NCBI GenBank assembly: GCA_016932095.1
Contig: JAFGDN010000067.1
Coordinates: 1 to 47,769 of the forward strand
Length of the DNA stretch: 47,769 nucleotides
Reading direction: 5' to 3'
Source of the DNA: Sedimentisphaerales bacterium
GTDB taxonomy: Bacteria; Planctomycetota; Phycisphaerae; Sedimentisphaerales; Anaerobacaceae
Of this stretch, positions 12,764 through 47,302 are shown piece by piece; the first letter of the stretch is position 1; each line of letters begins with the position of its first letter. Below the pieces are notes generated by a model that did not search any database, was not told where the DNA came from, and was given only the letters and a program-made list of their open reading frames with translations. The position numbers and the translations under genes were made by a program.

Positions 12764-13432
12764 CTACAGCGTCCTTCTCTTTTTCATCCATCCGACAAGA
12801 CAAACGCCGATGCCACCCAAAAGGACGGCGCCGGGGGCTGGAATGACAGGGCTGGTATGGCCTAAAAATCTTATGCCGCAATTCGGAGTCTCGTATCTCC
12901 ATCGAAACCAGCAGTCCGCGTCAAAACCTATAGCAAACACCAGCCGGCCATCGGGCTGAATGTAAGAGTTCAGCAAATCAAGCTCTTCAGCATTGAATGT
13001 ATAGGTCAAGTTGTCCACGGTCATTGGACCATCATAATCCACGAAATCTGACGACGAGCCATCAGGGTAAATCTCGTTTCCACCGTATTGCACGAGATCG
13101 TTCTGGTGCAATTGCTGATAATCATTGCCGATGAAGAGTCTATCCCCGCCAAAATACAGGCCCTGTATATCATCAGGTCCCAGTAACCGGACAAACAGCA
13201 CGTTCCTCTCCCACGCAACGCGGTTATAAATACCGGAAATTGACAGCCGCGCGTAATCTACCTCTTCGCCTGTGGGAATAGGGGTGGTTATCTTCCAGAT
13301 ATAGTATTGGTCGTGAGGAAGATCCCACAAATCGTTATCATAAGGCGTCCTGATGAAAGTGCTGTTTGCTCCGGCAAACATCGGGAACGACGCCATCAAC
13401 AATACTACAGCAAGCAAAATCGACTTTTTCAT
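12764..13432 (-). CDS. PEP-CTERM-like exported protein (candidate exosortase substrate)
   Basis: The 222-residue protein has a signal peptide (MKKSILLAVVLLMASFPMFA) and a mature beta-rich domain containing an IRTPYDNDLWDLPHDQYY opening. Its C-terminal sorting tail is a VIPAPGAVLL motif, a short hydrophobic helix with glycines, and the basic end WMKKRRTL. This is the tripartite PEP-CTERM form, with PAPG in place of PEP. Exosortase would cleave near the motif and release or anchor the protein at the surface. The start ATG at 13432 has AAAGGAG five bases upstream. A longer in-frame start about 36 codons upstream is less likely, because it would bury the signal peptide. It lies beside the exosortase locus, so pairing with that exosortase is likely. 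Confidence 0.88.
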   Translation of the reverse strand: MKKSILLAVVLLMASFPMFAGANSTFIRTPYDNDLWDLPHDQYYIWKITTPIPTGEEVDYARLSISGIYNRVAWERNVLFVRLLGPDDIQGLYFGGDRLFIGNDYQQLHQNDLVQYGGNEIYPDGSSSDFVDYDGPMTVDNLTYTFNAEELDLLNSYIQPDGRLVFAIGFDADCWFRWRYETPNCGIRFLGHTSPVIPAPGAVLLGGIGVCLVGWMKKRRTL

Positions 13433-13580
13433 AACCGCTCCTTTCAGTATCATCCGGCCGCAAATTATATGCGGGCGCTTGCTCGGCTTTCCTATTGCAC
13501 TAGCCAAAAATATTCCTTTCAAGTTAATCATGTCATCCATTTCTCCTTTCTCTCGCATAATGTTAGTAACGTACGGTTCC

Positions 13581-13835
13581 TTATATAACTTTTTGTATAA
13601 CCCTGAGCGTCTCACAGACATATTCAGGGAACTTACGATGTAACGGCAGAATCCGGGGCGCCTTGTGAGTGACATAAAAATAAAACAGAAAAAGCACGAA
13701 GAAATTGGCGGATGAAACAGTGATGGCTACGCATTTGGCGCCAAACGAAAGCCGGCTTGACCACAAAGGCCGAAGACCTTCGGTCAAGACCACGCAAACC
13801 AGACACAGCAAATTTAGAATAATACCAACAACCAC
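13581..13835 (-). CDS. possible small two-helix membrane protein
   Basis: The 84-codon frame starts with GTG at 13835, preceded by GCGGAG six bases away. It encodes two hydrophobic segments (about 1-18 and 34-56) and a basic C-terminus. It lies 150 bases downstream of a good promoter and 148 bases upstream of the PEP-CTERM-like gene on the same strand. No family is recognised. The ribosome site and helices favour a real gene, but a leader region cannot be excluded. A perfect CCGAAG/CTTCGG hairpin lies inside it. Confidence 0.42.
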   Translation of the reverse strand: MVVGIILNLLCLVCVVLTEGLRPLWSSRLSFGAKCVAITVSSANFFVLFLFYFYVTHKAPRILPLHRKFPEYVCETLRVIQKVI

Positions 13836-14616: not shown

Positions 14617-17600
14617 TCAGCTCCCCTTGGATAATTTATCGAGGAGCTTTTTCGCTTCGGCCAGGTCATCGGCGGTCAGCCCCTCTTTCTCATTGTTCAA
14701 GTCCAATGCTTTTTTAAGTGTTTCTGTTGCCCGGTCTGTTTGACCAAGTTTTTCCTGAATCCTTGCCAGGTGAAAATTCGTTGCCGCCAGCGACCTGGAA
14801 TCGGGCGGGTAAAGCAGAATACATCGGCTCAAATCGTCAGCCGCACGCTGATACAGACCCAGCCGGTACAGCGTTACTCCCCTCGTATCGAGCAGGTCAA
14901 CGTAGTTTGGCTCGATTTCGAGACCCTTATCGGCAAGGTCCAGCGCCTGCCGGTACTGTTTCTGGTCCTCACAAAGAATCCAGGCGAGATTATTCAACGC
15001 CACGACGTTTTTCGGGTCGTTTTTGAGAACCTGTCTGTAAAGACCGACGGCCTCGTTTGTTCGGCCGACGGTCTGCAACAATAAAGCAAGCGAATAACCG
15101 GCCGAGGCGGAATTCGGCTTCGATTCAATAACTCTGCGAAGTAAATCCTCTGCTATTTTGACTGGTTCATTTTCCTTGTCTGAGGCAAGCTGGCGGGCCA
15201 GAGCCACGGCAACGTTTACGTCATCCGGATGCGACTGCAGCCAGTTTTTAATTTTCCCGTCAACTTCAGGCCACAATTTGTCTTCGGACAGCAGCCGAAC
15301 CTGCACTAACAAAGGCACGGGGTCGTCGGGCGACGACTTTTCGAGTGAGTCGAAAATCTCCGACGCCTCCTTATGTTTTGACGATTTATAAAGAGCCGTT
15401 CCGAGCGAAATTTGCAGCATTCGCCGGTCGACGGCCTTTTCTTGAACGTTCAATTGCGAGTTGAGCAAATCCATCGCATGTTCATACTGGCCGGCGGCGA
15501 CAAGCGTATCGGCAAGATACGTGGTTACCTGGACGTCGTTTGGGTCCAACTCGTGCAGGGCAGTTAAAGTTGGGACTGCCAGATGTGGGGAATGCTGGCC
15601 TTCGATTTGGGCCTTTAAAAGCAGTAACTCCTTGTCCTTAGGCAGCCGGACAAGACCCTCGAGAACAATATTAAGTGCATCAGCGGGCTTTCCCCGTCGA
15701 AGAGCTGTTTCAGCCAGAAGCTTCCATACCTCACTTGTCGCCGGATGCTCTTTTTTTATGTCTTCGAGGATTGAACTCGCCTGCTCCAGCGAAACGGATG
15801 TTTGCAGCGCTACAAGCATTTGCGCCTTGTAAATGCGAAGCTCCAGGTCATCAGGATTCGACTGCAGGGCGTCGTCGAGCAAAACCAGCCCCTGTCGGAT
15901 TTGTTCGGGGTCGGCGGCCAGGTAAAGTAAAATTGCACGTTTCTGGATACGGACGTTATCAGGTTCAAGAAGCATCGCGCGTTTTATATCCGAAGCGGCC
16001 TCAGCGTCGTGTCCGACTGAGCGATAAAAATCGCTTCTCGCCAGCAGCGGCTCAATGCTGTTTGGCTCAATCGATACGGCCCTGTCGAAATCGGCGGCGG
16101 CCGTGTCGTTTTGGCCCAGCATCGCAGCGGTTTTACCCCGTAGAACCAGTGCGCTGCTGTTATTTAACCTCTCGACGAGTTTATCGCATATACGAATGGC
16201 TTCTTCTGAAGCGCCATTTCGAATTTTCATCTCCACTTTTGCTGCCACGGCGGGCAGGAAATCGGGGTCGTCGGCAATCAAATCGTTAAGCAGTTTTTCA
16301 GCGTCGTCCAACTGCCCCTGCTGAATTTTCAAAAGCGCCAAAGATAAACCTGCGGACTGATTTTTCCGGTCGGCGGCAAAGATATCCTCAAGCAAAACGG
16401 CTGCCGAATCGAAGTCGGCCGTCCTGATAAAGCTTTGAAGCTGAAGCTGTTTGAGCCGAGGATTCTTCTTTGTAATTTCGGCTGAATTTCGTATTAACTT
16501 GTCGGCACGGTCATATTCACCGGCTTGATACATAGCCGCGGCCGCCTGGACCACTATTTGAGCGTCGCCGGGTGAATGTCTAATCGCCTCATCATACGTT
16601 GCTATCGCCAGACGGATGTCTTTTGCCTTTTCATAGGCAGCGGCTAAAAGCATTCGACTTGGCTGGTCATCGGGGTCTTTCAGGAGATTTTCTTTCAAAA
16701 TCGCAACAATCTGCGGATAGTATGCGTTGAAATCTTTGGCGTTAAACCAGAATCTTGCCTGCTCGTATCGCCATTGCCCGCCGGCGTCGCCTTCGAGCGT
16801 CTTGATTGTATCGATAAGCTGCTGCGATTGGGCCGGGTTTTTCATAACTTCCGGGCAGGTCAGCATTGAACGAAGGACAGTTATATCTTTGGGGAACTCG
16901 ACACAGAGCCGAGAAAGCAGCTCGCACTGTTTCGCCGGCTGATTCAAGCCGGCGTACAGACCCGCCAGCAGAAAACCCATCTGTTTTTTGGCCGATGTAG
17001 TTTTTCCCTGCTCAAACGCCCGATTGACGATATCAACGCACCGCTGTTTTTCATTTTTAGCCCATAAATTGCTTATACAAGCCCGAACCAATGCGACCGA
17101 ATCGGGTGTTTTTTCGAGTGAATCAGTTAAAAGATTCATTGCCTGACCGGCTTTACCCTCGGCAAAAAGCAAATCCGCCTCGGCGATTACGACCCGCGTA
17201 TCAGAAGGATATAAATTCTTTATTTCATTAAGGATTCGACGGGCTTCGTTAAAGTCAGGTCGATTAACAGCCAACTGCAATCTCAGTAGTTTCACCTCTA
17301 TGGAGCCGCCAGTTGCGAGCTCGAGCTTCCGGGTATAATTTTCGAGGTCGATTTTTTCCTGCACATTTGCCCCTCCCTGCTCATCATACGCCAGGCGCGA
17401 CCTCGCAAGGGCGTATGCAAAGCCGGCATTTGCGTCATCAGGCGCGAGCTCAACGGCAATACGGGAGTGCTGCATCGATTCCGCCCATTTTCCGGCCTCG
17501 CCGAGCAATCGCGCCAATTCAATCCTGGCCGCAACAAACTTTGGCTCTTCGGAAACAAGAACACGCAACTGTTTAATGGCGGATTGGCGGTCGCCGAGTT

Positions 17601-18789
17601 TCAGGAAGGTTCTTGCGAGAGCAAACCGGAGGGTTTCCGGCTGCTTTCCAAGGTCAATCGCTCTTTGCCAGCATCTTACGGCTTCATACCACTGGCCGTT
17701 GGCGTCGGCGAGCAAGCCATTGAGAAACTCCGTTGTAACAGGGGTAATATCTTTCTGTCGCAGCTGGGATATGCAGTCAGCCGCCTCTTCCAATCGGCCG
17801 CTTCGAATATACAGCTCGGCAGCAATCGGCATAAAATCCCAGGGCTGCCGCTCAAGCTGTTTAGAGGCCCTCTGCGCGACTTCACTCATCAACTCACGTG
17901 AGCCGGACGCAATAGCCAGCGACGCCCAGACGCGCCATAACAACTGATTTGAGGGGTCAACGGCCTCAGCAATTTCGAGGTGTTGACGCGCCTGCTGCAA
18001 ACGTCCTGTGCCGACAAGCTGTTCGGCGAGCTGGATTCTGACGTTTGGGCCGTCGCAGTTTTTTGAAGCGGCCAGGTTGAAATCTGCAATTGCCTGAGCC
18101 GTTTGGTCTTGGCGGCGGTGAAACGCTCCCCTGCAAATCAGCGCCATTGCCGAATCGGGATTATTTTTAACTGCCTCCTCAAACCAGAATTGAGGCGTTA
18201 CACTGAAATCCTCCGGCCTTTGCTCGACCAGCCTGCCGAGTGAATCGTACGCATATATCTCATCGGGATTATTTTTTATGATTTTTTCAAGCTCCGCGGC
18301 GGCATCCTTAAATTTACGCTGACCGGCCAAAGCCAGCGCCATTAATCGTTGCAGCTCAGGGGTTTGGGAGGATTGAAGCGCCCTGCCTGCCACAAGCTCA
18401 GCATCTCCGGACATGCCAACCCCAAGGTATAACTCAGTTAACCTTGTCGCGGCCTCAACATGGCCGGGTGCGAGGCGTAATATGTTCCGATAAGCAGCAA
18501 TTGCCTGCTGAATATTTCCCTCCTTCAAGGGCCTGATGTTAAGCTGGCTATCGGCGTATTTGAGCAAAACAGGGATATCATCCTGGACGATGGCAAGGTA
18601 TCTTCCGAGCTGGTTTGCCGCCTCATTCCACTGACCTTGTTCGTATGCCTTACTACCGATTTTCAGCCCTGCGGAAGAGCGTCTTCCCCGCTGCCAGTGG
18701 CGCAGCCCCAATGCCGTAGCCGCTAAAACGGCCAATCCAAGCACTAAAACAACGAACAGTGTCCAGTTGAAGTAACGCCTCATCAGCAT
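14617..18789 (-). CDS. giant membrane-anchored TPR protein (PrsT-like)
   Basis: The 1390-residue protein has one N-terminal membrane helix (about 9-29) after a basic start, then tetratricopeptide repeats almost to the end. Repeat signatures such as AYEQGQWNEAANQLGRYL, PEDFSVTPQFWFEEAVKNNP and VALNNLAWILC recur every 34 residues or so. Exosortase loci of Proteobacteria carry a large TPR lipoprotein called PrsT. This one has a transmembrane anchor instead of a lipobox and is larger. TPR arrays make protein contacts, so it probably scaffolds the polysaccharide/sorting machinery in the periplasm. AGGAG precedes both ATG 18789 (spacing 3) and ATG 18783 (spacing 9). The second is equally possible. 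Confidence 0.88.
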   Translation of the reverse strand: MLMRRYFNWTLFVVLVLGLAVLAATALGLRHWQRGRRSSAGLKIGSKAYEQGQWNEAANQLGRYLAIVQDDIPVLLKYADSQLNIRPLKEGNIQQAIAAYRNILRLAPGHVEAATRLTELYLGVGMSGDAELVAGRALQSSQTPELQRLMALALAGQRKFKDAAAELEKIIKNNPDEIYAYDSLGRLVEQRPEDFSVTPQFWFEEAVKNNPDSAMALICRGAFHRRQDQTAQAIADFNLAASKNCDGPNVRIQLAEQLVGTGRLQQARQHLEIAEAVDPSNQLLWRVWASLAIASGSRELMSEVAQRASKQLERQPWDFMPIAAELYIRSGRLEEAADCISQLRQKDITPVTTEFLNGLLADANGQWYEAVRCWQRAIDLGKQPETLRFALARTFLKLGDRQSAIKQLRVLVSEEPKFVAARIELARLLGEAGKWAESMQHSRIAVELAPDDANAGFAYALARSRLAYDEQGGANVQEKIDLENYTRKLELATGGSIEVKLLRLQLAVNRPDFNEARRILNEIKNLYPSDTRVVIAEADLLFAEGKAGQAMNLLTDSLEKTPDSVALVRACISNLWAKNEKQRCVDIVNRAFEQGKTTSAKKQMGFLLAGLYAGLNQPAKQCELLSRLCVEFPKDITVLRSMLTCPEVMKNPAQSQQLIDTIKTLEGDAGGQWRYEQARFWFNAKDFNAYYPQIVAILKENLLKDPDDQPSRMLLAAAYEKAKDIRLAIATYDEAIRHSPGDAQIVVQAAAAMYQAGEYDRADKLIRNSAEITKKNPRLKQLQLQSFIRTADFDSAAVLLEDIFAADRKNQSAGLSLALLKIQQGQLDDAEKLLNDLIADDPDFLPAVAAKVEMKIRNGASEEAIRICDKLVERLNNSSALVLRGKTAAMLGQNDTAAADFDRAVSIEPNSIEPLLARSDFYRSVGHDAEAASDIKRAMLLEPDNVRIQKRAILLYLAADPEQIRQGLVLLDDALQSNPDDLELRIYKAQMLVALQTSVSLEQASSILEDIKKEHPATSEVWKLLAETALRRGKPADALNIVLEGLVRLPKDKELLLLKAQIEGQHSPHLAVPTLTALHELDPNDVQVTTYLADTLVAAGQYEHAMDLLNSQLNVQEKAVDRRMLQISLGTALYKSSKHKEASEIFDSLEKSSPDDPVPLLVQVRLLSEDKLWPEVDGKIKNWLQSHPDDVNVAVALARQLASDKENEPVKIAEDLLRRVIESKPNSASAGYSLALLLQTVGRTNEAVGLYRQVLKNDPKNVVALNNLAWILCEDQKQYRQALDLADKGLEIEPNYVDLLDTRGVTLYRLGLYQRAADDLSRCILLYPPDSRSLAATNFHLARIQEKLGQTDRATETLKKALDLNNEKEGLTADDLAEAKKLLDKLSKGS

Positions 18790-18810: not shown

Positions 18811-20445
18811 TTATTGAAATTGACGGACAAAATTTTTCAACATTTTCAGGAATGTCTTCAAACATATCCAAAGGTCAAGGGCCGGCGATAAATTCCTTAC
18901 GTATTCAACGTCGTAATGAATCCACTCCTGGAAATCTCTCATCCGCTTCCTGGTTCTGCAGACCTGCCAAAGGCCTGTGACGCCGGGTTTGACTGACAAT
19001 CTCGCATCTCGCCAGAAGGGGCAACGAACGTTCTCTGATTCCGGCGAAGGGCGAGGGCCTACAACGCTCATTTGGCCGAGTAAAACGGCAAAAAACTGGG
19101 GTATTTCGTCTATATAGGTTTCTCGCAGAAACCGTCCGACCCTGCTCATACGCGGGTCGTCAGTGATAACAAACTGTGGGCCATCCGCTTCATTGTAATC
19201 CTGCAACTCGTCCTGCAGCCGGTGAGCGCCAACCTGCATCGTCCTGAACTTATAACAGGCAAATGGTCTGCCTTGAAGGCCCTGACGGATACCCTTGTAA
19301 AAGACGGGCCCCCGCGAGCTTAATTTTATTATGACGGCTATAACCGGCACAAAGGGCATAAAAATCACAAGGACAATCAACGCCACAATCACGTCAGCGA
19401 TTCTTTTTACGCACCGGGCATAAGACAATTTTGGCCAGGTGCGAAAAGAGCCGCTATAAAGCGTATCGGCCCGCAATTCAGAAAAACCGGCCGATGATGA
19501 CTCAATGGGTTGCTGAAGGATTTGAGTTGAATCTGTGATAACACGGTTGCGGACGACGGCGCCGGCGGGGATTGAAACATCCGGGCCTATTATAGACGAT
19601 TGTATTATCGCGCCATCGGCTGCCTTTACTGAATCGCATAAGACGCTCGGGCCTGTAATAATCGTGTTTTCATCGACATCGACGTTGCGGCCAAACAAAA
19701 CCTCGCCAAACAGACGCGCGGCAGCCGGCACAGAATCGCCGTTTGACCCGTTGCGACCCGGTTTTTTCGATGACCCGGACGGCAGCATTGAAAGCAATCC
19801 CTCTTCGGTATTCAAATCCAGCGATGTACCGCCCATACCGATACTTACTATCGTCGCAGAACAGGATTTGCACCTGTTTATAAATTCACCGAAGGCATCG
19901 GAAAATATTTTGTCTGAGAAAAGCAGGTTGGCAACCCGGGAGTTTATAAACAGATAGTGCGGCCAGTCGGATGGTATCGGGACCGGCTGTATAGTGTCGG
20001 CATATAAAAGACGGAATCCAAGCAGATTACATTTCGAATCAGTATGAACTTTTTCGCTTCCGGCCCGAAGATTCGGGTCAATATTCACGGCAACTACGTC
20101 ACAGCCAAGTCGTTCCACGGTCTTAGAGAGCAAACGCGTGTCTGCCGAGACAAGGAACCTGCCGTTTGAAACGACATACCAGGTTTTTTCACGGAAAGAA
20201 GACCATATCGAAGGAACTGCGGCCTTATCATTGTAGAACAAAATCCGGCGGTTATTGCCGTTATCAGCTCGTTTCCATTCACCCGGAACCGCGACAAGGA
20301 AATCATCCGGTCTCAGGGTATTCCATTCGGACAACCTTTTTACAACAACATCAGTCACCGGTCTGCAGGTAAACGCCAGTTTCAAAAGGGAATGAGCGTC
20401 CTGACTCGGCTGATTTGATAATTTATGAACGACAATCAGGTTCAT
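18811..20445 (-). CDS. initiating polyprenyl-phosphate sugar transferase fused to an NTase-like/hexapeptide module
   Basis: The 544-residue protein has three parts. Residues 1-230 resemble a degraded nucleotidyltransferase-like fold with no recognisable catalytic motif. Residues 245-305 are hexapeptide (left-handed beta-helix) turns, such as DENTIITGPSVLC and SSIIGPDVSIPAGAVVRNRV. Residues 340-540 are a bacterial sugar transferase with one membrane helix (about 350-373), KFRTM (399-403), DEIPQ (446-450), VGPRP (462-466) and KPGVTGLWQV (486-495). The C-terminal domain moves a sugar phosphate from a nucleotide to undecaprenyl phosphate, the first step of polymer synthesis. Classic relatives have extra helices at the N-terminus instead. 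The same unusual layout occurs in the exosortase gene of this cluster. Confidence 0.9.
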   Translation of the reverse strand: MNLIVVHKLSNQPSQDAHSLLKLAFTCRPVTDVVVKRLSEWNTLRPDDFLVAVPGEWKRADNGNNRRILFYNDKAAVPSIWSSFREKTWYVVSNGRFLVSADTRLLSKTVERLGCDVVAVNIDPNLRAGSEKVHTDSKCNLLGFRLLYADTIQPVPIPSDWPHYLFINSRVANLLFSDKIFSDAFGEFINRCKSCSATIVSIGMGGTSLDLNTEEGLLSMLPSGSSKKPGRNGSNGDSVPAAARLFGEVLFGRNVDVDENTIITGPSVLCDSVKAADGAIIQSSIIGPDVSIPAGAVVRNRVITDSTQILQQPIESSSAGFSELRADTLYSGSFRTWPKLSYARCVKRIADVIVALIVLVIFMPFVPVIAVIIKLSSRGPVFYKGIRQGLQGRPFACYKFRTMQVGAHRLQDELQDYNEADGPQFVITDDPRMSRVGRFLRETYIDEIPQFFAVLLGQMSVVGPRPSPESENVRCPFWRDARLSVKPGVTGLWQVCRTRKRMRDFQEWIHYDVEYVRNLSPALDLWICLKTFLKMLKNFVRQFQ

Positions 20446-20491: not shown

Positions 20492-22804
20492 TCAGGACTG
20501 AGGGTGTGAATCTTTGCCCTTTTTTTCTTTTTCATCGGGAGAAAATAACAGGGGATTGACGCCGGAGTGACGCCTGTCTCTTTTTGATCTTCCGCTCTGC
20601 GAGTAATAGTTGTATCCGTAACGATAATAAGCGTGACCGAGATGAACATTGTTCATAACGGTGCCAACAATTTTAACGTTAATCTGTGATAACCTGTCCC
20701 TTGCTTCCCTGAGGTCTGAGCCGTTTGTGTGGCCGGCAAAGCTTGTCAGGATAACTGAGCCGGCGATTTTCGCCCAGATAAGAGCGTCAGGAAAAGCAAG
20801 GACCGGCGGAGTATCGATAATCACGTAATCGAATCTGTCCGACAGCATATTTATCAGATTGGCCGTCTCAGGCCGAATCAGAAGTTCGTACGGGTCTTTC
20901 TCATTCTGCGAATCGGCGGCAAGCACGAATAAGCCGGGCGAAACCATTATGCAGAGCGAATCATCAAAAGACGAGCCGGAGAGCAGGTCCTGCAAATTTC
21001 TGGCGCCTCTCGAAACGTTCAATAACCGCCCTATGTCGGGCTTTCTCAGGTCGCCGTCAATCAGGATGACCTTGTGGCCCGATTTGCTCAAACTTGTCGC
21101 TATATTAATCGAAAAAGTTGTTTTGCCGTCGCGCATACCAGCGCTTGTAACAACAAGTTTTTTAGGAATACCTTCGCCGTCGATTAATTTGAGGTTGGCG
21201 CGAATCGTCTGATAATCCTCGGTCAACTGTCTGGGGAGCAGTTTTCTTTCAACTGAGCCCGGGCTGGTAGTGGTCCCGATGATTCTGACGCCGATGCATT
21301 TGACGACGTCATCCGGTGAATGTACGCTATGGTCGAGCTTGTCTCTGAGAAACGCCAGCCCGACTGAGCCGGCGGCCGCGGCCACAATAAGCGCCATGGT
21401 AAACTTCATTCGTTTATCCCTCACGGGCGTGACATCAGCGGTATATGCAATTGAAATCCTGGCGGGCTGTTTCCTTTCCATCTCCATTTCCTGGATTCGC
21501 CGGATTACGGTGTCGTACATCTGATTGTCGCGTTCGAACTGATTTTGCATTTCCTGAATGTTGAGATGTTTGCGGCCGACCTCTATGGCCTGAGCGTCCT
21601 CTTTGGCAAGTTTTTCCTTCAAGCGATTTTCATAAGTTGACACCTGGGCAAGCTGCCCTCGAAGATTGAGCAGCTCGTTTTTGGAAGCGAGGTTTACCTC
21701 TTCGACGACCATAATATCAAAATCTTTTCCCACTTCCTGACGTTTTTCATTTAGCCGTTTCTCGAAGGACGCAACAAATTCCTCTTTCTGTTTAAGAAGG
21801 GGATTTTCAGAGGTCATAAGCTGTCTCGACGCCATCATATCCTGTTCGAGACGCGCGAGGTTACGCACAAGCTCCTGAATAGCCGGGTCGGAATTAATAT
21901 AATCCTTACGCTTATTGAGCCATTCTTCGGGCATCGCCCGCGAACTGCCACTTTCAATGGCTTCGATGCGGGACTCGATGTTTATGCGCTGCGCCTCGAC
22001 TTGTGTCAGCTCAGACAACAACTGCGATACCTTTTCAAGCATCATTCTTTGCCGGTCATCGAGAGAAGCGGTTCCGAATTCCATTGCCAGCTTCTTGATT
22101 TCGTTTTGCTGGTTCTGCAGTTTTTCAAGCAACGTTCTCCGCTCGCTCTCAAGGACGTTTAATTTCTGGTCTTCATCCTGGGTGGACCTGAGCCCTTCGA
22201 CGGCCATATATGCACGTATAAAGGCGTCAACTATAACGCCTGCCTCCTGGGGCTTTGCGGTCCGCATGGTTATTGTTATCAATTCCGAATTGCGCTCAGG
22301 AGTAATAGTAATAACACCGTTGGCGATGGCCAGTTTCAAACGCGCCGCATAGTCAATTCTCCCGGCTGAGCCGTCTATGTGTTGCCTGGCTTTTTTAACA
22401 AGGCCGGACGACTCTGCATTGAAAAGCGAAAGGTTTTTATCCACGAGGTCGTCTGCTACTCTTTGAATAACCTGGGGGCTGGCAATCATTTTTGCCTGCG
22501 TGTTCATAAAGCTCTGATAGTTCGATATCTCGCCCCTGTCCTGCTCGCCGGTAAGTATATTTGAAAGAATCGGCGCGACTTTTATGGCCCCGGTCACCTC
22601 ATAAACAGGATTAAGCCCATGCCATATAAAGGGTATCCCAAGAATACAAGCCGCAGTAAAGACAATAACCACAATCGGCCATCGTCGAAGCAGCATCGCG
22701 ATAAACATTTCTCCCGTATTTGCAGACGCGGATTCCTGAACAGGAGCAAATGCTTCCATTGGCGGTCCTAACGTCCCGCCTTCATATTTCATCAATTCAT
22801 CCAT
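20492..22804 (-). CDS. chain-length protein/tyrosine autokinase (Wzc-like BY-kinase)
   Basis: The 770-residue protein has an N-terminal Wzz domain with one membrane helix (about 42-62), a long periplasmic coiled coil (about 200-450), a second helix (about 467-487), and a cytoplasmic kinase. The kinase shows Walker A SAGMRDGKTT (554-563), Walker A' ILIDGDLRK (580-588) and Walker B YVIIDTPP (660-667). A tyrosine cluster with six Tyr lies at 726-734 as the autophosphorylation site. It should control polymer length and export together with the Wza-like lipoprotein at 9.4 kb. The start ATG at 22804 has GGAAAG upstream. The basic tail beyond 740 is not conserved in the family. Confidence 0.94.
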   Translation of the reverse strand: MDELMKYEGGTLGPPMEAFAPVQESASANTGEMFIAMLLRRWPIVVIVFTAACILGIPFIWHGLNPVYEVTGAIKVAPILSNILTGEQDRGEISNYQSFMNTQAKMIASPQVIQRVADDLVDKNLSLFNAESSGLVKKARQHIDGSAGRIDYAARLKLAIANGVITITPERNSELITITMRTAKPQEAGVIVDAFIRAYMAVEGLRSTQDEDQKLNVLESERRTLLEKLQNQQNEIKKLAMEFGTASLDDRQRMMLEKVSQLLSELTQVEAQRINIESRIEAIESGSSRAMPEEWLNKRKDYINSDPAIQELVRNLARLEQDMMASRQLMTSENPLLKQKEEFVASFEKRLNEKRQEVGKDFDIMVVEEVNLASKNELLNLRGQLAQVSTYENRLKEKLAKEDAQAIEVGRKHLNIQEMQNQFERDNQMYDTVIRRIQEMEMERKQPARISIAYTADVTPVRDKRMKFTMALIVAAAAGSVGLAFLRDKLDHSVHSPDDVVKCIGVRIIGTTTSPGSVERKLLPRQLTEDYQTIRANLKLIDGEGIPKKLVVTSAGMRDGKTTFSINIATSLSKSGHKVILIDGDLRKPDIGRLLNVSRGARNLQDLLSGSSFDDSLCIMVSPGLFVLAADSQNEKDPYELLIRPETANLINMLSDRFDYVIIDTPPVLAFPDALIWAKIAGSVILTSFAGHTNGSDLREARDRLSQINVKIVGTVMNNVHLGHAYYRYGYNYYSQSGRSKRDRRHSGVNPLLFSPDEKEKKGKDSHPQS

Positions 22805-22844: not shown

Positions 22845-24779
22845 TCATTTGGCGGAGATTATAACCTCTTTGGCCTTTACCGGCTGCACTGTCAATCGGT
22901 CAATCAGCCATAACTCCAGGACCACAATCGCCAAAGCCAAAGGCATCATTGCATAGCCACCAAAGTCGTGGAATATCTTTTCCCAGTAATCCCCCTCAAG
23001 CCAGGTGAACGCTATGGCCGTCAACGCTAGTCGCGTCGTATTACACAGCAGGGCGACAGGCAAACTCGAAGCCAATATAGTCAGCTTCTCCCACCATTTA
23101 CGTCTCACCAACAACACTACCAGCCCGCTGATTACAAAAAAAGCGGTTATCATACGCAAGCCGTTACAGGCCTCAGCGACGGCAACCGTGAATTGTCCGA
23201 TGTGTATAATATTACCTTCCCGGAAGACGTCATAACCGAGCATTTCGAGACAAAATACCGCCGAGGATGTTGACCACTGTTGTAAAGGCAGGGCGACCGC
23301 CGCCTGAACGCTGTTGGGCCACGGCAGCATCAGGAACAGGAACAACATCACAAAAGCGGTCTTTTTGAAAAACTCCCAGCCCAGCACAATCAGCACCAGG
23401 GCAATGAGGCCGACAACAATCGCCAGCCGTTCGGCTGAACCATACATAAAAAACAACCCGAATAACCGCAGGCCCTCGGCAAAAAGAAGACCAATGAAAC
23501 CCCACAACGCCGGTCTTATTGAAATGGTCCTGAGTTTATCTCTCCTCGACCAAAGAATATAACCGGCAAGAAAAGGAACGAGTATCCCGCTGGAGTACTC
23601 GTCGCTTCGGCGCCAGATACTACACAGGTCAACGATTCCAGGCCAATAAGACCAGACAAACACAGCCGCTATTACTGCGCCGGCCAACCAGACAATCCAG
23701 GACGAAATCCCTGCTACTGATACTTTTTCCGTTGATGGCTTCGGTATCGGCAACGGATTCTTTAGACCCGACCCAACAAGCTTTATCGCCCGTGCCTTCG
23801 AATCTGACATAACAGAGGATTTTTCAAAAGGTATGATTTTATTTCGAACAACCGTATCACCCGCGATACGAACGTTGTAATCGAGCAGGCAGTTTTGGAC
23901 CTCGCAATCCGGCTCTATCACGGCATTGTCCCAAAGCACACTGCATGCGACAAAGCTGTTGCCGCCTAATCGACAGTTTTTTCCTATGACAGCAGGCCCG
24001 AAAACAACTGTGCCTTTCGCCACCTTTGCGCCCGCCATTACCGCCACAGGCCCCAGTAATTTCGCCGAGGGGTCAATATCAGCAGATTCATCCGCGTATA
24101 TGTTTTCCCCGCCTCTTCGCCGCAGCGTAGGAACCTCTTCATCGAGAGCCGGCTGGTTTTCAAGGAAATTTGTCATTGCTCGCAAATAACCGGGGCCGCC
24201 TCGGAAATTCTCAACGTCCCGGGACAATTCGACGGTCTTAAGAACTTTTCCCTGTTTAAGCATTTCGGGCACCAATCCCTCCTTGATGTCGCAGTAGCCA
24301 TATTGGGGAATGTGCTCCAAAACAGTGTTGCTGCAAATGTAAATGCCCGTGGAATCGGCGCGAGAAGATTTGGCCGGATTAAGAACGGCGGTCAAGTCGG
24401 CCTTTTGCTCGATGTGGGCGTTAATCAAACGATTGATGTCCGGCGTCCTGACAATCGATGCCGAGATGATGACGATAATTTCCCCTGAGTTATTGCTTAC
24501 GGCATCACGAAGACAGCCGGCCGTTCCCACGCGAAGAGGTTCTTCAACGAAATCTATCTTTACCCCTCCGACTCGGGACGTCAGCGATTTCAAAGACCCG
24601 ATATTACCTTCCGAACAAACACTGATTTCCCGAAATTCCTGAGCGGCTACGTGCCTGATAACCCGCTCAATGGCGGATTGCTGCAGCACAGGCCACAGCG
24701 ACGCAGGCAGCCGTGATGCAATCGGACACCGGCCAAAATCAGGACTGCCGGCCAGAACTATTACTCTGACATCGTGCAT
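22845..24779 (-). CDS. exosortase fused to a degenerate sugar-nucleotidyltransferase/hexapeptide module
   Basis: The 644-residue protein begins with a nucleotidyltransferase-like domain (1-208). It keeps the VGTAGCLRDA element but has GSPDFGRC where GGxGTRL is expected, PASLWPV instead of a PKPLLPV-type lysine motif, and SAS instead of the metal-binding NGD. Left-handed beta-helix turns follow (about 228-315). The C-terminal part (359-633) is a multi-helix exosortase with the catalytic residues C538 in AEACNGLR, R583 in NTTRLALT and H604 in FHDFGG. Exosortase cleaves PEP-CTERM tails at the membrane. A likely substrate is the gene at 12.8-13.4 kb. EpsI is not fused and is encoded 22 kb away. 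The gene overlaps the SGNH gene by 19 bases. Confidence 0.93.
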   Translation of the reverse strand: MHDVRVIVLAGSPDFGRCPIASRLPASLWPVLQQSAIERVIRHVAAQEFREISVCSEGNIGSLKSLTSRVGGVKIDFVEEPLRVGTAGCLRDAVSNNSGEIIVIISASIVRTPDINRLINAHIEQKADLTAVLNPAKSSRADSTGIYICSNTVLEHIPQYGYCDIKEGLVPEMLKQGKVLKTVELSRDVENFRGGPGYLRAMTNFLENQPALDEEVPTLRRRGGENIYADESADIDPSAKLLGPVAVMAGAKVAKGTVVFGPAVIGKNCRLGGNSFVACSVLWDNAVIEPDCEVQNCLLDYNVRIAGDTVVRNKIIPFEKSSVMSDSKARAIKLVGSGLKNPLPIPKPSTEKVSVAGISSWIVWLAGAVIAAVFVWSYWPGIVDLCSIWRRSDEYSSGILVPFLAGYILWSRRDKLRTISIRPALWGFIGLLFAEGLRLFGLFFMYGSAERLAIVVGLIALVLIVLGWEFFKKTAFVMLFLFLMLPWPNSVQAAVALPLQQWSTSSAVFCLEMLGYDVFREGNIIHIGQFTVAVAEACNGLRMITAFFVISGLVVLLVRRKWWEKLTILASSLPVALLCNTTRLALTAIAFTWLEGDYWEKIFHDFGGYAMMPLALAIVVLELWLIDRLTVQPVKAKEVIISAK

Positions 24780-25636
24780 TGAGAAAGAGTTATCAGCATT
24801 TGCTCGGCTGTAATCCTACGGCCTAACTCATTGAGATGCCCGCCGTCATCTGTATATTGCGGGGCCATAAACGGGATTCGCCGGCCGTTTCTTGAAACGT
24901 AACAGGAAAGGCCATCAGGCCCGACCGATTCAACCAGGGCAAGGTCAAACAGGCAGTCGGTTTTGCCGTATTCTTCGCGAATAAATTTGTTATACTGCTC
25001 GCGTCTGAGGTTATCATCTATTTCCGTCGGCCTTCTCAAAAGCCATTTGACAAAACCTTTAATTGTCTTTTTCGCCCCTTTTGGCGGCGACTTCAGCGGC
25101 GCCGTAAGATGCAAAAACTTGACTCGCGGGTAACTCCGCTCCATATCGCTAATCGCCGATTTGTATTCATCGAAGATTTCACGGGGATTGCTGTCATTTG
25201 TAACGTCTATGTAACAAAACTTCAAAATAGCGACGTCAACCTTCTCGCCGACGCCGCTATTCATGATTTCTGCGAATTGCTCTATCTTGCTTGTCGGCTG
25301 TCTGTTTTTCCCCACAGGCGAATGAGCAAAAACAGGCCCTGCAAAATCCCGCGGCGAGGATGTCTCAACAACATTCAGTTTCATCGGATTACCGTTGCGG
25401 ATAACGTCCTCAATACCGTTGACAATGTTATAGCCCACCGACTGGTGGCCGAAAAATATCTTCGCCTCGGCAAGCTTGCTCCAGCGTTCCGCGGGCATGT
25501 CATTTGCTTTCGGCAGGGGCGCCGTCGCCCGCTCAAACCTCAATGTCGTTTTCACGTGGAACAGCAACGACAGGCCGACAGCCACGAAAACCCCCAAACC
25601 CGCTGCGATATATATCGAGCTCATTTTAATCCTCAT
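24761..25636 (-). CDS. membrane-anchored SGNH/GDSL-like hydrolase-fold protein
   Basis: The 291-residue protein has one N-terminal signal anchor (about 7-24) and an extracytoplasmic domain. This contains FFGHQSVGYN near the start, an ILKFCYIDVT strand, and TDDGGHLNELG near the end. That arrangement resembles the SGNH fold, with Asp and His of the last block in place. The usual GDS serine is replaced by GHQSVG, which can still offer serine. Such proteins modify polysaccharides by adding or removing acyl groups. The start ATG at 25636 overlaps the stop of the NadE-like gene as ATGA. ATG 25624, with GAGG six bases upstream, is an alternative. The longer frame belongs to the previous gene. Confidence 0.75.
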   Translation of the reverse strand: MRIKMSSIYIAAGLGVFVAVGLSLLFHVKTTLRFERATAPLPKANDMPAERWSKLAEAKIFFGHQSVGYNIVNGIEDVIRNGNPMKLNVVETSSPRDFAGPVFAHSPVGKNRQPTSKIEQFAEIMNSGVGEKVDVAILKFCYIDVTNDSNPREIFDEYKSAISDMERSYPRVKFLHLTAPLKSPPKGAKKTIKGFVKWLLRRPTEIDDNLRREQYNKFIREEYGKTDCLFDLALVESVGPDGLSCYVSRNGRRIPFMAPQYTDDGGHLNELGRRITAEQMLITLSQCTMSE

Positions 25637-26628
25637 TTGGCTTTCTCTCTGACATCGTCGATTAAAACGGGAGGCGAGTGCAGGTACCGTGATACACTGC
25701 GTTTGGCCTCGATATCTTTGTAAATATTCTCGACCTGCTCTTCGGTCAAACCCGCCGTCGCCGCCACAGCCGACGGGGTAACCCCGTGATTTTTGCCGAA
25801 CAGGCAAAGGTCCATTTTGTCGTATGGCACTGAGAAGTAGAATTCTTCCTGGCTCTGGGGCAGTGAATACGTATCGGTTGTCGGCTGCTGCGAGCGGATT
25901 GTATCCGGCAGGCCGAGGTATTCAGCCATTTGATAAACCTGGGTTTTATAAAGGTGTCCTATCGGTTTTACGTCTGCTGCGCCGTCGCCGTTTTTGACGA
26001 AAAAGCCCTGGTCGTATTCCAGCAGGTTAGGCGTTCCGGCCACGGCGTAGTTGTGCTTGTCGGCATAGTAATACTCGAGCATTTTTCGCGTTCGCTGTTT
26101 GAAGTTTGTCGCCGCAACAATCCCCAGATAGGCGTCTCGCGTCAGACGAACCTTTTTTTGAACGCCCTCAGGTGATTCGACGACCACCGAAAAAAGCCGA
26201 TACTGCTGCTCATCGGTGAAGCCGGGCAGGACAATCTTGCTTTTGTAACCCGGCCCATATTCCGGAACAACACTGCGTATCGCCTCATCCCTTCTGCGAT
26301 AACAGCCAACCGAATCCAGGATTTGAGTTATGTCTTCCGTTTCGGCCTTTATCCCTAAATGCTCAACTATCAGCCGGCCCAGGCCGAGCGTCTTTTTTGA
26401 CGAATCCTTCTCGGGCATCAGAAGGCCCAGAACTCGCTCTTTGCCAAACGCGGCAACGCACAAAGCCCCGACCACGCTGCTGTCAATACCTCCCGATAAC
26501 GCGACAACAGCGCCGCGTTTCTTGAAATTAACCAGGACAACGTCTCGCAGGGCCGCCGTTATCCTTTCGGCCTCACGGGCACAGTCAATCCGCAGAACGT
26601 CTTTTGAAAAAGGTGTCTTCATAGCCAT
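25633..26628 (-). CDS. nadE: NAD synthase-like ATP-pyrophosphatase (NadE family)
   Basis: The 331-residue protein has the PP-loop SGGIDSS (45-51), AGTPNLLEYDQGFF and NGDGAADVKPIGHLYKTQVY. These match ammonia-dependent NAD synthase, which amidates deamido-NAD after adenylation. There is no glutaminase domain. The AGTPN block departs from the usual GT(G)NKSE, and the C-terminus is extended. NadE-like genes beside acyl ligase, ACP and AsnB in polysaccharide clusters may amidate another acid group. I cannot tell whether this is the housekeeping enzyme. GGAG stands five bases before ATG 26628, which follows the ligase stop by two bases. Confidence 0.82.
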   Translation of the reverse strand: MAMKTPFSKDVLRIDCAREAERITAALRDVVLVNFKKRGAVVALSGGIDSSVVGALCVAAFGKERVLGLLMPEKDSSKKTLGLGRLIVEHLGIKAETEDITQILDSVGCYRRRDEAIRSVVPEYGPGYKSKIVLPGFTDEQQYRLFSVVVESPEGVQKKVRLTRDAYLGIVAATNFKQRTRKMLEYYYADKHNYAVAGTPNLLEYDQGFFVKNGDGAADVKPIGHLYKTQVYQMAEYLGLPDTIRSQQPTTDTYSLPQSQEEFYFSVPYDKMDLCLFGKNHGVTPSAVAATAGLTEEQVENIYKDIEAKRSVSRYLHSPPVLIDDVREKAK

Positions 26629-26630
26629 AT

Positions 26631-28205
26631 CTACTCCAGCTCTCCCGCTTTCAATTTTTTCCTGTCAATTTTGCCGTTGGGGGTCTTGGGCAAACTGTCA
26701 ACAAACTGAATATGCTTGGGCAGCATATACGTTTCCATATTTGCGCTGCAGTATTTCAAAACGTCCTTCTCGCCCAGATTGGCGTCCTTTGCCCGAACTA
26801 TGAACGCCTTTATCGCCTGGCCGAGCACCTCGTCGGGCACACCCGTTACCGCCGCCTCCGCCACGCCCGCAATTGTGCATAAGATATTTTCAACCTCTCT
26901 GGCAATTACACGTTCACCCCGGCATTTTATCATATCGTCCTTCCTTCCGAGAAAATACAGGAATCCCTGGTCGTCGGTTCGGAAGAAATCGCCGGAATAA
27001 AGAATCCTTTGACCAGGGTATCTGCCGGGCCGATATGATTTTGCCGTAAGCTCCGGGTCATTCCAGTAACCCAGCATCACGTTAGAACCTCTGACAACCA
27101 GTTCGCCTTCCTGCCACGGCTGCACCTTGCAGCCGTTTTCGTCAACAACAAACACCTCTGAGTTCGGTATCGCCCCGCCCACCGAATCAGGCCTGTTGTC
27201 CAGCTCTTCCGGCAGCAGGTAAGTAGCCCGTTTGCATTCGGTAAGCCCATACATAGAAAATATCTTTATGTGAGGAAACAACTCCCTGATTTTTTTGGCG
27301 TGTGCCGCCGGCAGCGCCGCGCCGGCATTGGTTATATAACGCACGCTGCTGAAATCAAATTTTCCCAAATCCTCCAGCTTGAGCAGCATTGCCACGATTG
27401 TCGGTACCATTGGGAAACCCGTTATCTTCTCCCGGCGGATAAGCTCCAGCAGCGGATAAATATAGAAAAACGACTTCTCCAAAACCACCGTCCCGCCGAA
27501 CATAAAAGCCATAATCACCTGATACAAACCATATCCGAAAGACAACGGCAGGACATTCAAAATGACGTCGTTTTCCTCGTTTCCCAGGTATTCGATGACG
27601 CTCTTGGCCACTGAAATCATATTGTGATGCGTGGTCATAACGCCCTTCGGCTCGCCCGTCGAGCCGGAAGTGTAAATCAGCGCCGCCAGGTCCTCGTCTA
27701 TACATCGAGGTAATTCGTGATTGTAGCCGGCGTCATTGGCAAATATCGTGTCCCAGCTCAGCGACGAGCTTTTCAATGACGCCGGTACTTGCGTCTGGCG
27801 TCCGACCCATATAATCCTGCATTTGTTCGGATTATCCGTAAAAGCGCCGACAACGACTTTCGCCTTGTTTGTATGGGTGATGAAAACCTTGGCTTCGGTG
27901 TTACCGAGAACATACTTAAGCTTGAGCGACTTTACTGAGCCATCGAGTATTACAAAAGCGGCGCCCGCCTTGAGAATTCCGTATAGCGAGATAACGGATT
28001 CACAGGAATTATCCAGCAATACAACTATCCGGTCATGCCTTTCCACGCCGGCGTCAATTAACGCTTGAGCAAGCCGGTCGCTGCGATGGTCAATCGTCTT
28101 GTAAGTCAGACGTTCCTGGCCGCAGATAAGCGCCGTTTTGTTTGGAAACCGTTTCGCCGAGCGACGAAGCCATTCGTGAACTAAAACCGGGTCAAATTCA
28201 ATCAT
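26631..28205 (-). CDS. acyl-AMP ligase / acyl-CoA synthetase (exosortase-cluster type)
   Basis: The 524-residue ANL-superfamily enzyme has the phosphate loop YTSGSTGEPKG (178-188), the SMYGLTECKRATYL adenine motif, the GDFFRTDDQGFLYFLGRKDD hinge, and catalytic K512 in TPNGKID. It adenylates a carboxylic acid and may load it on the ACP encoded two genes upstream. The same trio (ligase, AsnB, ACP) accompanies exosortase/PEP-CTERM loci in Proteobacteria. The acid is unknown. The start ATG at 28205 lacks a clear ribosome site. Confidence 0.92.
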   Translation of the reverse strand: MIEFDPVLVHEWLRRSAKRFPNKTALICGQERLTYKTIDHRSDRLAQALIDAGVERHDRIVVLLDNSCESVISLYGILKAGAAFVILDGSVKSLKLKYVLGNTEAKVFITHTNKAKVVVGAFTDNPNKCRIIWVGRQTQVPASLKSSSLSWDTIFANDAGYNHELPRCIDEDLAALIYTSGSTGEPKGVMTTHHNMISVAKSVIEYLGNEENDVILNVLPLSFGYGLYQVIMAFMFGGTVVLEKSFFYIYPLLELIRREKITGFPMVPTIVAMLLKLEDLGKFDFSSVRYITNAGAALPAAHAKKIRELFPHIKIFSMYGLTECKRATYLLPEELDNRPDSVGGAIPNSEVFVVDENGCKVQPWQEGELVVRGSNVMLGYWNDPELTAKSYRPGRYPGQRILYSGDFFRTDDQGFLYFLGRKDDMIKCRGERVIAREVENILCTIAGVAEAAVTGVPDEVLGQAIKAFIVRAKDANLGEKDVLKYCSANMETYMLPKHIQFVDSLPKTPNGKIDRKKLKAGELE

Positions 28206-28252
28206 AACGCATTATTGCCAACATCTTAAATAGTGCAATATCCTGTACACGT

Positions 28253-30253
28253 TCAATTCGCCCTGGCTGCACTGTCAGTCCTTCGGTCAACAAGAAGATT
28301 TACACTGGGCAGACGGGCCAACCGTGTTGAAAACCCCTCGATAAACTGTTCGTAGATAATTTGGGATGAAAGAATGCCCGCAAGGGCCATATTGTCAACC
28401 TCGGAGCCCTCTTCGGCTTTTTCCAGTTTTCGCACCAGCAAGGCAACCTTCTTTGCATCGAACAGACCCGCCTTTTTTATGGCGTTCTCAGACAACATCT
28501 CGCGGGCAACAACGCCTGCCTGGCCAGCCAGCAAGCTGTTTTTAATTGGCGCCCGGTACGGGTGTTTCGTCCTTGAGGTAATATCGTCAGGAATAATTCC
28601 TTTGTATGCCTTTTTAAGAATGAACTTTTCGTTCATACCGAGAATCTTCCACCTAGCAGGCACCCGGCTCATATATTCAATAATTCGCTTGTCTAAATAA
28701 GGCGGTCGAATCTCCAGCGAATTGGCCATCGCCATCCTGTCGCCCTGCGACGAAAGCAGGTAATTGCTCAGAAAAATCACCGTTTCCAGATACTGCGCCC
28801 GTGAAACACAATCCCATTGCCCAAAATCAGCGGGCAGGGATTCCCTGGTCTCGGCAAAACCATCATAGCCGCCAATCGCCTGCTTCAACTCGTCTGAAAA
28901 GAAAACCTTGATTCTGCCGGTGTTCTCCCACCTGAGAAGATGAGAAAAGAGGGGGTCCGAAAGCGACTCAAGCCCTTTACCGAAAAACATAGGCAATGAT
29001 TGTTTTACCCGTGCTCTATCGCGAAATATGTGAGAGTATAACTGCCCTGTAAGTGCGGCGCGTTTCCGTGAACCAGGAAATCTGGCCAGGAATTTCCTGA
29101 CCTTGGTCTCGCGAAAGACATCGTATCCGCCAAAAAACTCGTCAGCCCCTTCCCCGGTCAAAACCACTTTCAAGTTATGCTCCCGGACAAATTTAGACAG
29201 CAAAAACATCGGCGCCGGCGCAGTTCTCAATAACGGCTTCTCGCAATGCCAGAGGCAATCCGCGAAGCACGCGCCTATTTGCTCGTTTGTCGCCTGGATT
29301 TCACTGTGGCGGGTCTTGAGAAACTCAGCCATTTGATTTTGATGGCAGCCCTCGTCGAAAGCGGATTCCTCAAACCTGATTCCGAACGTCGTAACATCTC
29401 TGTCAAAGTTCTGCACGATAACAGCGGTAATGCCTGATGAATCCAGCCCGCCGCTCAAATACGCCCCGACCGGGACGTCAGCCCGTAAAAAACGAATCCT
29501 TACGGCATCGAGCAGCAATCCGCGGATATTCTCGCATATCTCATCGGTTGGCGTATCCAGTTGCTCGCAACGCGGTACAAAGGGAACATCCCAGTATTTC
29601 CTGACTTCGAGTTTTCCGTTCGATACTTTCAGAAAATGACCGGGCGGCAGCTCATTTATGCCTTCGAAGGCGGTCCTGCCTTTCAACGTGGTCCAGAACG
29701 TGAATATCTGGTCCATCGCCAGCGGGTCAAGCCGGCGGGTAACGTTTTGATTGGCAAAAATCGCCTTTATCTCAGATGCGAAAATCAGGGTATCATCGAC
29801 AATGGTAAAATAGAACGGCAGAATCCCGACGTGGTCGCGGGCCGCGAACAACTCTCTTTTGGCCGAATCCCATATCGCAAACGCGAACTGTCCGTTCAAC
29901 TGCTCAAGGCAGTCCAGGCCATATTGTTCGTATAAATGCAGGAGCACCTCTGTGTCGGAGGTCGTATAGAACCTGTGGCCTTTGCTTTCAAGCCCCTGCC
30001 GCAGCTCGGGATAGTTAAATACCTCGCCGTTGTAGATAATCCACATGCTCTGGTCTTCGTTGTGTATCGGCTGGGTCCCGGATGAAAGGTCTATAATACT
30101 CAATCGCGTATGGGCAAGACCGATTCCGTCGCCCATATAAAACCCCGCCTCATCCGGTCCGCGATGGCGTAACAACCCCGCCATCGACTTCATACTGTCG
30201 AGTTCAACTCTGCCCTTATTTTTTAAACTATAAATTCCAGCTATCCCGCACAT
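28253..30253 (-). CDS. asnB: asparagine synthase-type amidotransferase (exosortase-associated)
   Basis: The 666-residue protein has an N-terminal class II glutaminase with catalytic Cys2 (MCGIAGIY), RHRGPDEAGF and YNGEVFNYPELR, followed by a synthetase domain with PP-loop SGGLDSSG. It should take ammonia from glutamine and amidate a carboxyl group via an acyl-adenylate. ATG 30253 is required, because Cys2 must become the N-terminus; the codon two before it is TTG. Position between ACP and acyl ligase, as in XrtA-type clusters, argues for modification of the polymer or of an acyl-ACP rather than free asparagine synthesis. Confidence 0.92.
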   Translation of the reverse strand: MCGIAGIYSLKNKGRVELDSMKSMAGLLRHRGPDEAGFYMGDGIGLAHTRLSIIDLSSGTQPIHNEDQSMWIIYNGEVFNYPELRQGLESKGHRFYTTSDTEVLLHLYEQYGLDCLEQLNGQFAFAIWDSAKRELFAARDHVGILPFYFTIVDDTLIFASEIKAIFANQNVTRRLDPLAMDQIFTFWTTLKGRTAFEGINELPPGHFLKVSNGKLEVRKYWDVPFVPRCEQLDTPTDEICENIRGLLLDAVRIRFLRADVPVGAYLSGGLDSSGITAVIVQNFDRDVTTFGIRFEESAFDEGCHQNQMAEFLKTRHSEIQATNEQIGACFADCLWHCEKPLLRTAPAPMFLLSKFVREHNLKVVLTGEGADEFFGGYDVFRETKVRKFLARFPGSRKRAALTGQLYSHIFRDRARVKQSLPMFFGKGLESLSDPLFSHLLRWENTGRIKVFFSDELKQAIGGYDGFAETRESLPADFGQWDCVSRAQYLETVIFLSNYLLSSQGDRMAMANSLEIRPPYLDKRIIEYMSRVPARWKILGMNEKFILKKAYKGIIPDDITSRTKHPYRAPIKNSLLAGQAGVVAREMLSENAIKKAGLFDAKKVALLVRKLEKAEEGSEVDNMALAGILSSQIIYEQFIEGFSTRLARLPSVNLLVDRRTDSAARAN

Positions 30254-30287
30254 ATTCAAATTATAGGCGTCAAGCGTTTTGAGAGGA

Positions 30288-46585: not shown

Positions 46586-47302
46586 TTATCTTGTTTTTGC
46601 CTGGGCGTTTCTCTGGCCGTTTTCTGCAGGGAAAAATGGTATCAGAAGGTCCGCCATATGCCCCGCTGCTGCACGGGCGCCATTTTCGGAAGTTGACCCA
46701 ATCTGTATCTGGGCCACATAACGAGCGGGATTGCCTTTAATGTTAGGCGTCCGCCAGCCAATGCCGCTGAAGGTGCTTTCATCAGTGGTCAGCACGCCGT
46801 TGACCACGTAAAAATTCAATACTATCATCTCGCCGCTATTCGGAGCCGGTCTGTGGAAGCGATGCAGCAGGCACGGGATGGTGCGCTCGGAAAGCGAAAC
46901 TACAGACGTCTTCACTGTGCTGTCGTGAATCCATCCGCTTGCCGGATAACAGAGGGTCGGCCTGTGCCCTAACATTGTTCTCGGCCGGGTCGTATATGCA
47001 ACATAAAGGTTTATATGCTCGTTAGTAGAGTGATTTTGATATTCACGGTTTATGTAATCGTCGTTACGGGCAATCCGTTGCACCGGCTCAGACAATGGCG
47101 TGTCTTTACCCTTCCAATCGCCCACCTCGTATGGAAAGGCATTTAAACTAACGGGCAGCTCAACCGGCATACGAACAATGACTCCCAGGTATTCCGCCAC
47201 GCCCCGGTAGAGTGCACCTGTTGCCGCCAATAAGGCAACCACTAATAAAATAACGATGACAACCCATGTTTTGGCAATCGCTGATTGCCTCGTGCAGGCC
47301 AT
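46586..47302 (-). CDS. epsI: exosortase-associated protein EpsI
   Basis: The 238-residue protein has a single N-terminal membrane helix (about 13-32) and a periplasmic EpsI-type domain with the signature HRPTLCYPASGW (113-124). The domain is known as an accessory of exosortase systems, sometimes fused to the exosortase. Its exact function is not settled. It is the first gene of the large cluster and 22 kb from the exosortase itself. AGGAG stands seven bases before the ATG. Confidence 0.92.
   Translation of the reverse strand: MACTRQSAIAKTWVVIVILLVVALLAATGALYRGVAEYLGVIVRMPVELPVSLNAFPYEVGDWKGKDTPLSEPVQRIARNDDYINREYQNHSTNEHINLYVAYTTRPRTMLGHRPTLCYPASGWIHDSTVKTSVVSLSERTIPCLLHRFHRPAPNSGEMIVLNFYVVNGVLTTDESTFSGIGWRTPNIKGNPARYVAQIQIGSTSENGARAAAGHMADLLIPFFPAENGQRNAQAKTR

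Follow-up and report, generated by a model that had tools for sequence, protein, structure and literature searches.

The window, the whole stretch of 47,769 nucleotides analyzed here from a Sedimentisphaerales bacterium, carries an uninterrupted ATG-to-stop frame of 644 codons at positions 22845 to 24779, and the ATG overlaps the 3' end of the upstream gene by 19 bases. This gene and all other window features described below lie on the minus strand. The encoded protein of 644 amino acids joins a pseudo-nucleotidyltransferase and a left-handed beta-helix to an exosortase, a membrane enzyme with a presumed role in cleaving and sorting proteins of the cell surface. The assignment draws on the intact frame, Pfam and NCBIfam matches, and full-length fusion homologs.

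By profile and triad, the C-terminal part (residues 360 to 629; 22893 to 23702) is an exosortase, with PEP-CTERM cleavage or transpeptidation as its candidate function. It matches PF09721 in Pfam over residues 372 to 625 (E value of 1.4e-59; 202 bits against a curated cutoff of 25.7) and TIGR02602 in NCBIfam (153.7 bits against a cutoff of 105.55), is over the cutoff for 8TM_EpsH, and is predicted as a helical bundle. The initial annotation had read the triad as C538, the proposed nucleophile (23166 to 23168), R583 (23031 to 23033), and H604 (22968 to 22970). All three residues are invariant among nine diverged fusions, which also keep both halves of the protein, and together with the PF09721 match they bear out that reading.

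The N-terminal half consists of a nucleotidyltransferase-like domain of the GT-A type that has lost its catalytic residues (about residues 1 to 220; 24120 to 24779), a left-handed beta-helix (about residues 219 to 320; 23820 to 24125), and a basic linker (residues 325 to 359; 23703 to 23807) with six lysines or arginines against two aspartates or glutamates. Searched alone, this half matches PF00483 (NTP_transferase; residues 19 to 145, E value of 3.5e-7, above the curated cutoff) and PF25084 (LbH_EIF2B; residues 225 to 316, E value of 1.1e-14). Profile matches, among them PDB profiles for the nucleotidyltransferase-like domain, extend across the whole module to UTP-glucose-1-phosphate uridylyltransferase, GMPP, and eIF2B. 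The structure prediction of the fusion (mean pLDDT of 87.8; 41 sequences) places a well-defined module at residues 1 to 320, a low-confidence linker at 336 to 357 (pLDDT below 50), and a helical exosortase at 360 to 629. Residues 1 to 329 of the model align with eIF2B-epsilon over 325 residues (Z score of 31.8, root mean square deviation of 2.7 Å) and with GMPPB over 313 residues (Z score of 30.8). The predicted fold is thus that of a sugar-1-phosphate nucleotidyltransferase of the GMPP/RmlA/GlmU type, and the two Pfam matches and the fold match (Z score of about 31) uphold the earlier description of a sugar-nucleotidyltransferase-like fold followed by a beta-helix. Basic segments (the linker and residues 412 to 425 and 557 to 566) fall on one side of the membrane and the triad on the opposite side. 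Under the positive-inside rule, these loop charges argue for a cytoplasmic module and a periplasmic triad, in keeping with the cytoplasmic pseudo-enzyme that had been proposed.

Neighbors of the fusion gene in the cassette

The next gene of the cassette (20492 to 22804) encodes a Wzc-type chain-length protein/tyrosine autokinase, which matches TIGR01007 over the cutoff and holds the same position in other loci, including unselected ones. Two genes downstream of the fusion lies a polyprenyl-phosphate sugar transferase (PGT) of 544 amino acids (18811 to 20445), followed by a giant TPR protein of 1390 amino acids (14617 to 18789), the fourth and closing gene. This order of fusion, Wzc-type kinase, PGT, and TPR protein recurs in most of the fusion loci retrieved, contig ends permitting. 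TPR proteins also flank module-free exosortase paralogs (L110 to L112, L115, and L119).

The gene at 18811 to 20445 is a monotopic PGT by its Bac_transf catalytic domain (PF02397, E value of 2e-58), and the predicted structure of residues 333 to 538 matches WbaP (Z score of 20.4) and PglC (Z score of 19.8). Its N terminus (19492 to 20445) aligns with the fusion module in hhalign (99.5%, E value of 6e-23), so that two membrane enzymes of one cassette bear related modules. The PGT module (residues 1 to 319) is diverged: its predicted fold matches VTC1 and GMPPB only modestly, with Z scores of about 14 (14.5 for VTC1), deviations of about 7 Å (7.3 Å for VTC1), and an altered arrangement of domains. 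The window's PGT shares with the large and bifunctional monotopic PGTs (WbaP and Bi-PGT) the WbaP/PglC catalytic domain behind an N-terminal accessory domain, but here that accessory domain is a nucleotidyltransferase and beta-helix, whereas large PGTs usually have a four-helix bundle and DUF. The initial annotation, which did not mention the PGT module, had placed the exosortase in a polysaccharide context with a possible polymer-enzyme partner; the cassette supplies that context, and its PGT is a candidate for the partner.

The fusion shares with the exosortase/EpsH of the PEP-CTERM system (PF09721 and TIGR02602) the same domain, the Cys-Arg-His triad, an exopolysaccharide locus, and many PEP-CTERM proteins, but it adds a 320-residue, putatively cytoplasmic pseudo-nucleotidyltransferase. 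The window's genome has more than 20 places above the PF07589 cutoff and so contains PEP-CTERM substrates by that profile. Exosortases had been described earlier as standing alone or fused to EpsI-type domains. EpsI fusions (C-terminal) are indeed among those named by Haft et al. in 2006, together with fusions to CAAX-protease-like domains (PMC1569441); here, the EpsI-type (DUF3485) gene is separate, at 46586 to 47302, about 22 kb away and at the other end of the cluster that contains the fusion. No exosortase-nucleotidyltransferase fusion was found described in the literature searched, which omits most subscription journals. Judged by its sequence, the window's protein appears to combine an exosortase and a cytoplasmic partner of a new kind, in a family for which EpsI and CAAX-protease-like fusions are already known.

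Catalytic and replacement motifs of the module

We aligned 59 modules to an intact nucleotidyltransferase: 45 from fusions, 12 encoded separately, and 2 fused to a PGT. Four catalytic elements of the enzyme are gone in essentially all 45 fusions: the arginine of GTR is kept in at most one, the lysine of PKP in none, the aspartate of NGD in one, and the second metal aspartate (DxG) in none. By these residues (GxGTR, PKP lysine, NGD aspartate, and DxG aspartate), the module is not a catalytic sugar-1-phosphate nucleotidyltransferase. Other positions are held firmly. The GTAG base loop keeps its glycines in all 59 modules; D164 and K166 of the D-x-K-E signature (24279 to 24290), whose E167 is present in 58 of the 59, are likewise invariant. 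The replacement motifs in the fusions are DFGRCP..ALWP and D-x-K-E, and the phosphate-loop residues D14, F15, G16, R17, C18, and W29 are each present in 37 to 44 of the 45 fusions. The module thus appears to lack catalysis yet to be under strong constraint. The loss of motifs across the fusions agrees with the pseudo-enzyme proposed initially; the description "degraded" is right about the lost motifs but understates the case, as the losses are family-wide and a conserved motif stands in their place.

In sequence and predicted structure, the module is a nucleotidyltransferase and beta-helix with lost catalytic residues and a full-length fold match, which is the architecture of GMPPA and KONJAC. 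The beta-helix is the part predicted with the highest confidence (pLDDT of about 98 for residues 241 to 300). No column of the helix has a histidine in more than 15 of the 45 fusions, and an acyltransferase role for the helix, which would call for the conserved catalytic histidine of hexapeptide acyltransferases, was ruled out. Four cysteines, C18 (24726 to 24728), C55 (24615 to 24617), C89 (24513 to 24515), and C149 (24333 to 24335), are conserved in 31 to 42 of the 45 fusions, and C292 and C297 are also strongly conserved within the fusion group. The six are mostly missing from the two-gene relatives and form a possible metal or redox site of the fusions.

Distribution of fused, separate, and absent modules

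The full-length fusion is present in at least about 70 of the 161 genomes of the window's order, among the matches listed, at 32 to 58% identity; a few of the order-wide matches listed contain in-frame stops. A fusion so widespread at this identity is not an assembly error. With the frame intact and at least about 70 full-length homologs, a sequencing error, a hidden stop or start, or an artificial fusion is ruled out as the source of the gene. In a phylum sample of 294 genomes, nine encode the full-length fusion, three of them (G031, G075, and G093, at loci L010, L006, and L007) belonging to one family outside the window's class. In the phylogenetic tree, these three branch as the sister group of all the order's fusions, which fits either an old fusion or a transfer. 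A protein search of a collection of genome contigs returned an exosortase relative as its sole match, and the plasmids searched yielded ordinary nucleotidyltransferases only.

The module also occurs outside the fusion, in forms that the initial annotation did not mention. In 17 loci of other families (L042 to L044, L047, L160 to L165, L168 to L170, L175, and L177 to L179), it has its own gene just upstream of an exosortase gene, often with an overlap; in L042, the module stop and the exosortase start share ATGA. The fear that the two halves might always be separate genes was therefore unfounded, as fusions exist alongside these two-gene forms, both within the order and in one family beyond the class. 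Two other genomes (L046 and L048) encode a PGT to which a module with the D-x-K-E motif is fused. Four genomes of the order have the module alone before Wzc-PGT, in a cassette that lacks an exosortase (L102, 8432 to 9532; L103, 7905 to 9050; L105, 8152 to 9183; and L106, 8753 to 9856). Three of the four (G402, G329, and G337) have only plain exosortases, on other contigs, and the fourth (G396, L103) has an exosortase fusion elsewhere in its genome. Conversely, an exosortase precedes Wzc in L108 and L118 with no module found, suggesting that the module is dispensable in those cassettes.

The fusions and six separate modules form one supported group (99/98) in which the separate ones are nested, so that within this group they are more simply explained by loss or splitting of an existing fusion. 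The tree is unrooted, and a single branch sets off each of three groups: the fusion group, the adjacent-gene group, and the true nucleotidyltransferases. An origin in which separate genes came first was set aside, since the tree fits later loss or splitting inside the fusion group, although, unrooted as it is, it does not order the earliest events.

We also surveyed the order through 31 nearly complete genomes that had not been picked for the fusion. Thirty contain an exosortase; a plain one is present in all 30 and a fused one (frame longer than 600 amino acids) as well in 17. Among 33 exosortase loci examined with flanks of up to 1.5 kb, Wzc adjoins 8 of the 9 exosortases with the module versus none of the 24 without it (chance of about 6e-7, computed by hand and uncorrected for kinship), which argues that the module marks a cassette-bound exosortase. 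The window's genome likewise has a second, plain exosortase, and the module would tell the cassette-bound from the plain enzyme inside one genome.

Possible roles of the module

In our judgment, the module very probably has a noncatalytic regulatory or scaffold role of some kind. The reading that we favor is that the N-terminal half would be a noncatalytic nucleotidyltransferase/left-handed-helix subunit, permanently attached at the cytoplasmic terminus of an exosortase that serves a single exopolysaccharide cassette. As with GMPPA, KONJAC, or the subunits of eIF2B, this dead nucleotidyltransferase may dock on a related module, and its remnant pocket may sense a nucleotide or nucleotide sugar. 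The likeliest docking partner would be the related module of the PGT two genes downstream. Such pairing would keep the exosortase where the polysaccharide starts (PGT) and where its length is set (Wzc), with the outcome that proteins would be sorted only where and when polymer is made. Pairing with the PGT, nucleotide-sugar sensing, and the coupling of sorting to polymer synthesis are steps that we infer. The full statement, that a docking and sensing subunit connects an exosortase devoted to the polysaccharide with the step that initiates it, is one on which we hold belief and doubt in even balance.

Known systems favor a docking or sensing subunit: GMPPA binds GDP-mannose and inhibits GMPPB (PMC11228364), KONJAC proteins, inactive themselves, raise VTC1 activity (PMC11066809), and the PGT WbaP has a noncatalytic accessory domain that acts as a regulator by sensing nucleotides (PMC10942596). 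Also counted for docking are the spread of the fusion, the loss of four catalytic elements from a module that keeps the GTAG loop, D164, K166, and E167, the predicted eIF2B-epsilon/GMPPB fold, the loop charges, the conserved cassette order, the PGT module, module swapping, and the Wzc association. GMPPA (with GMPPB), KONJAC (with VTC1), and eIF2B gamma/epsilon likewise combine a nucleotidyltransferase and left-handed beta-helix without pyrophosphorylase catalysis. However, they are soluble and have nucleotidyltransferases or GEF subunits as their partners, whereas the window's module is tethered to a candidate membrane transpeptidase/protease and its candidate partner module, on the PGT, is degenerate too. 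The PGT module is so highly diverged (Z score of 14.5, 7 Å) that a conserved interface with the fusion module is not obvious, and the cassettes of L108 and L118, with no module found, also speak against the docking reading. In a distance-correlation test, the two modules gave a partial r of 0.37 (P = 0.0005; three controls), which became 0.21 (P = 0.03) once the TPR protein and quadratic terms were added and is not specific to the pair. The TPR protein (14617 to 18789), a fast-evolving neighbor, correlated more strongly with several partners, most closely with the exosortase domain (partial r of 0.64).

Exosortases have been known in exopolysaccharide loci since 2006, when the acceptor of the sorted protein was unknown (PMC1569441), and the acceptor and a physical link to the polymer machinery were still an open question in 2025 (PMC12188702). 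The related dead modules on both enzymes suggest that protein sorting and polysaccharide synthesis are physically connected. Now that the exosortase and the enzyme that initiates the polymer are seen to bear related modules of a regulatory type, within one conserved cassette, this connection can be tested. An extension of the docking reading, in which paired dead modules hold the exosortase and PGT in one complex and the cleaved protein is passed to the PGT-started lipid-linked sugar or growing chain, seems to us quite improbable; if true, the fusion would mark the long-sought acceptor of exosortase transfer.

The module might instead bind a nucleotide or nucleotide sugar and gate the attached exosortase allosterically without the PGT, as the invariant base-binding GTAG glycines and the nucleotide sensing of WbaP (PMC10942596) would allow. 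We consider this somewhat unlikely, given that cassettes lacking an exosortase still keep the module ahead of Wzc-PGT, that in other genomes it is fused to a PGT, and that binding may be weak with the phosphate- and metal-holding arginine, lysine, and aspartates gone. It is also unlikely that the helix and nucleotidyltransferase shell, its pocket empty, only cluster exosortases or fix them in a Wzc/PGT complex: the lost catalytic pocket and the confidently predicted helix without a conserved histidine for acyl transfer fit such a scaffold, but the pocket loops DFGRCP, PxGTAGC, and DxKE are strongly conserved rather than drifting. Altered chemistry or metal use, for example through C18, C55, C89, and C149, would account for the conservation of these cysteines, yet both metal aspartates, the GTR arginine, and the PKP lysine are missing, and the two-gene relatives lack most of the four cysteines, making a surviving enzyme highly improbable. 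A functionless passenger of a chance fusion, for which the lost catalytic residues might speak, is hardly credible because the motifs hold across dozens of genera at 32 to 58% identity, and other families encode the same partner in a gene of its own next to the exosortase gene.

Two further features of the neighborhood concern exosortase systems more broadly. Upstream of the fusion, a run of SGNH/GDSL-like, NAD synthase-like, AMP-ligase, and asparagine-synthase-like genes (24761 to 30259) resembles the exosortase-system genes of TIGR03098 and TIGR03108; L092 has the same run, and L099 and L108 have part of it. At 12764 to 13675, a protein ending in IPAPGAVLLGG...WMKKRRTL matches PEP-CTERM weakly (15.8 bits, below the cutoff) and is a possible dedicated substrate adjoining the cassette.
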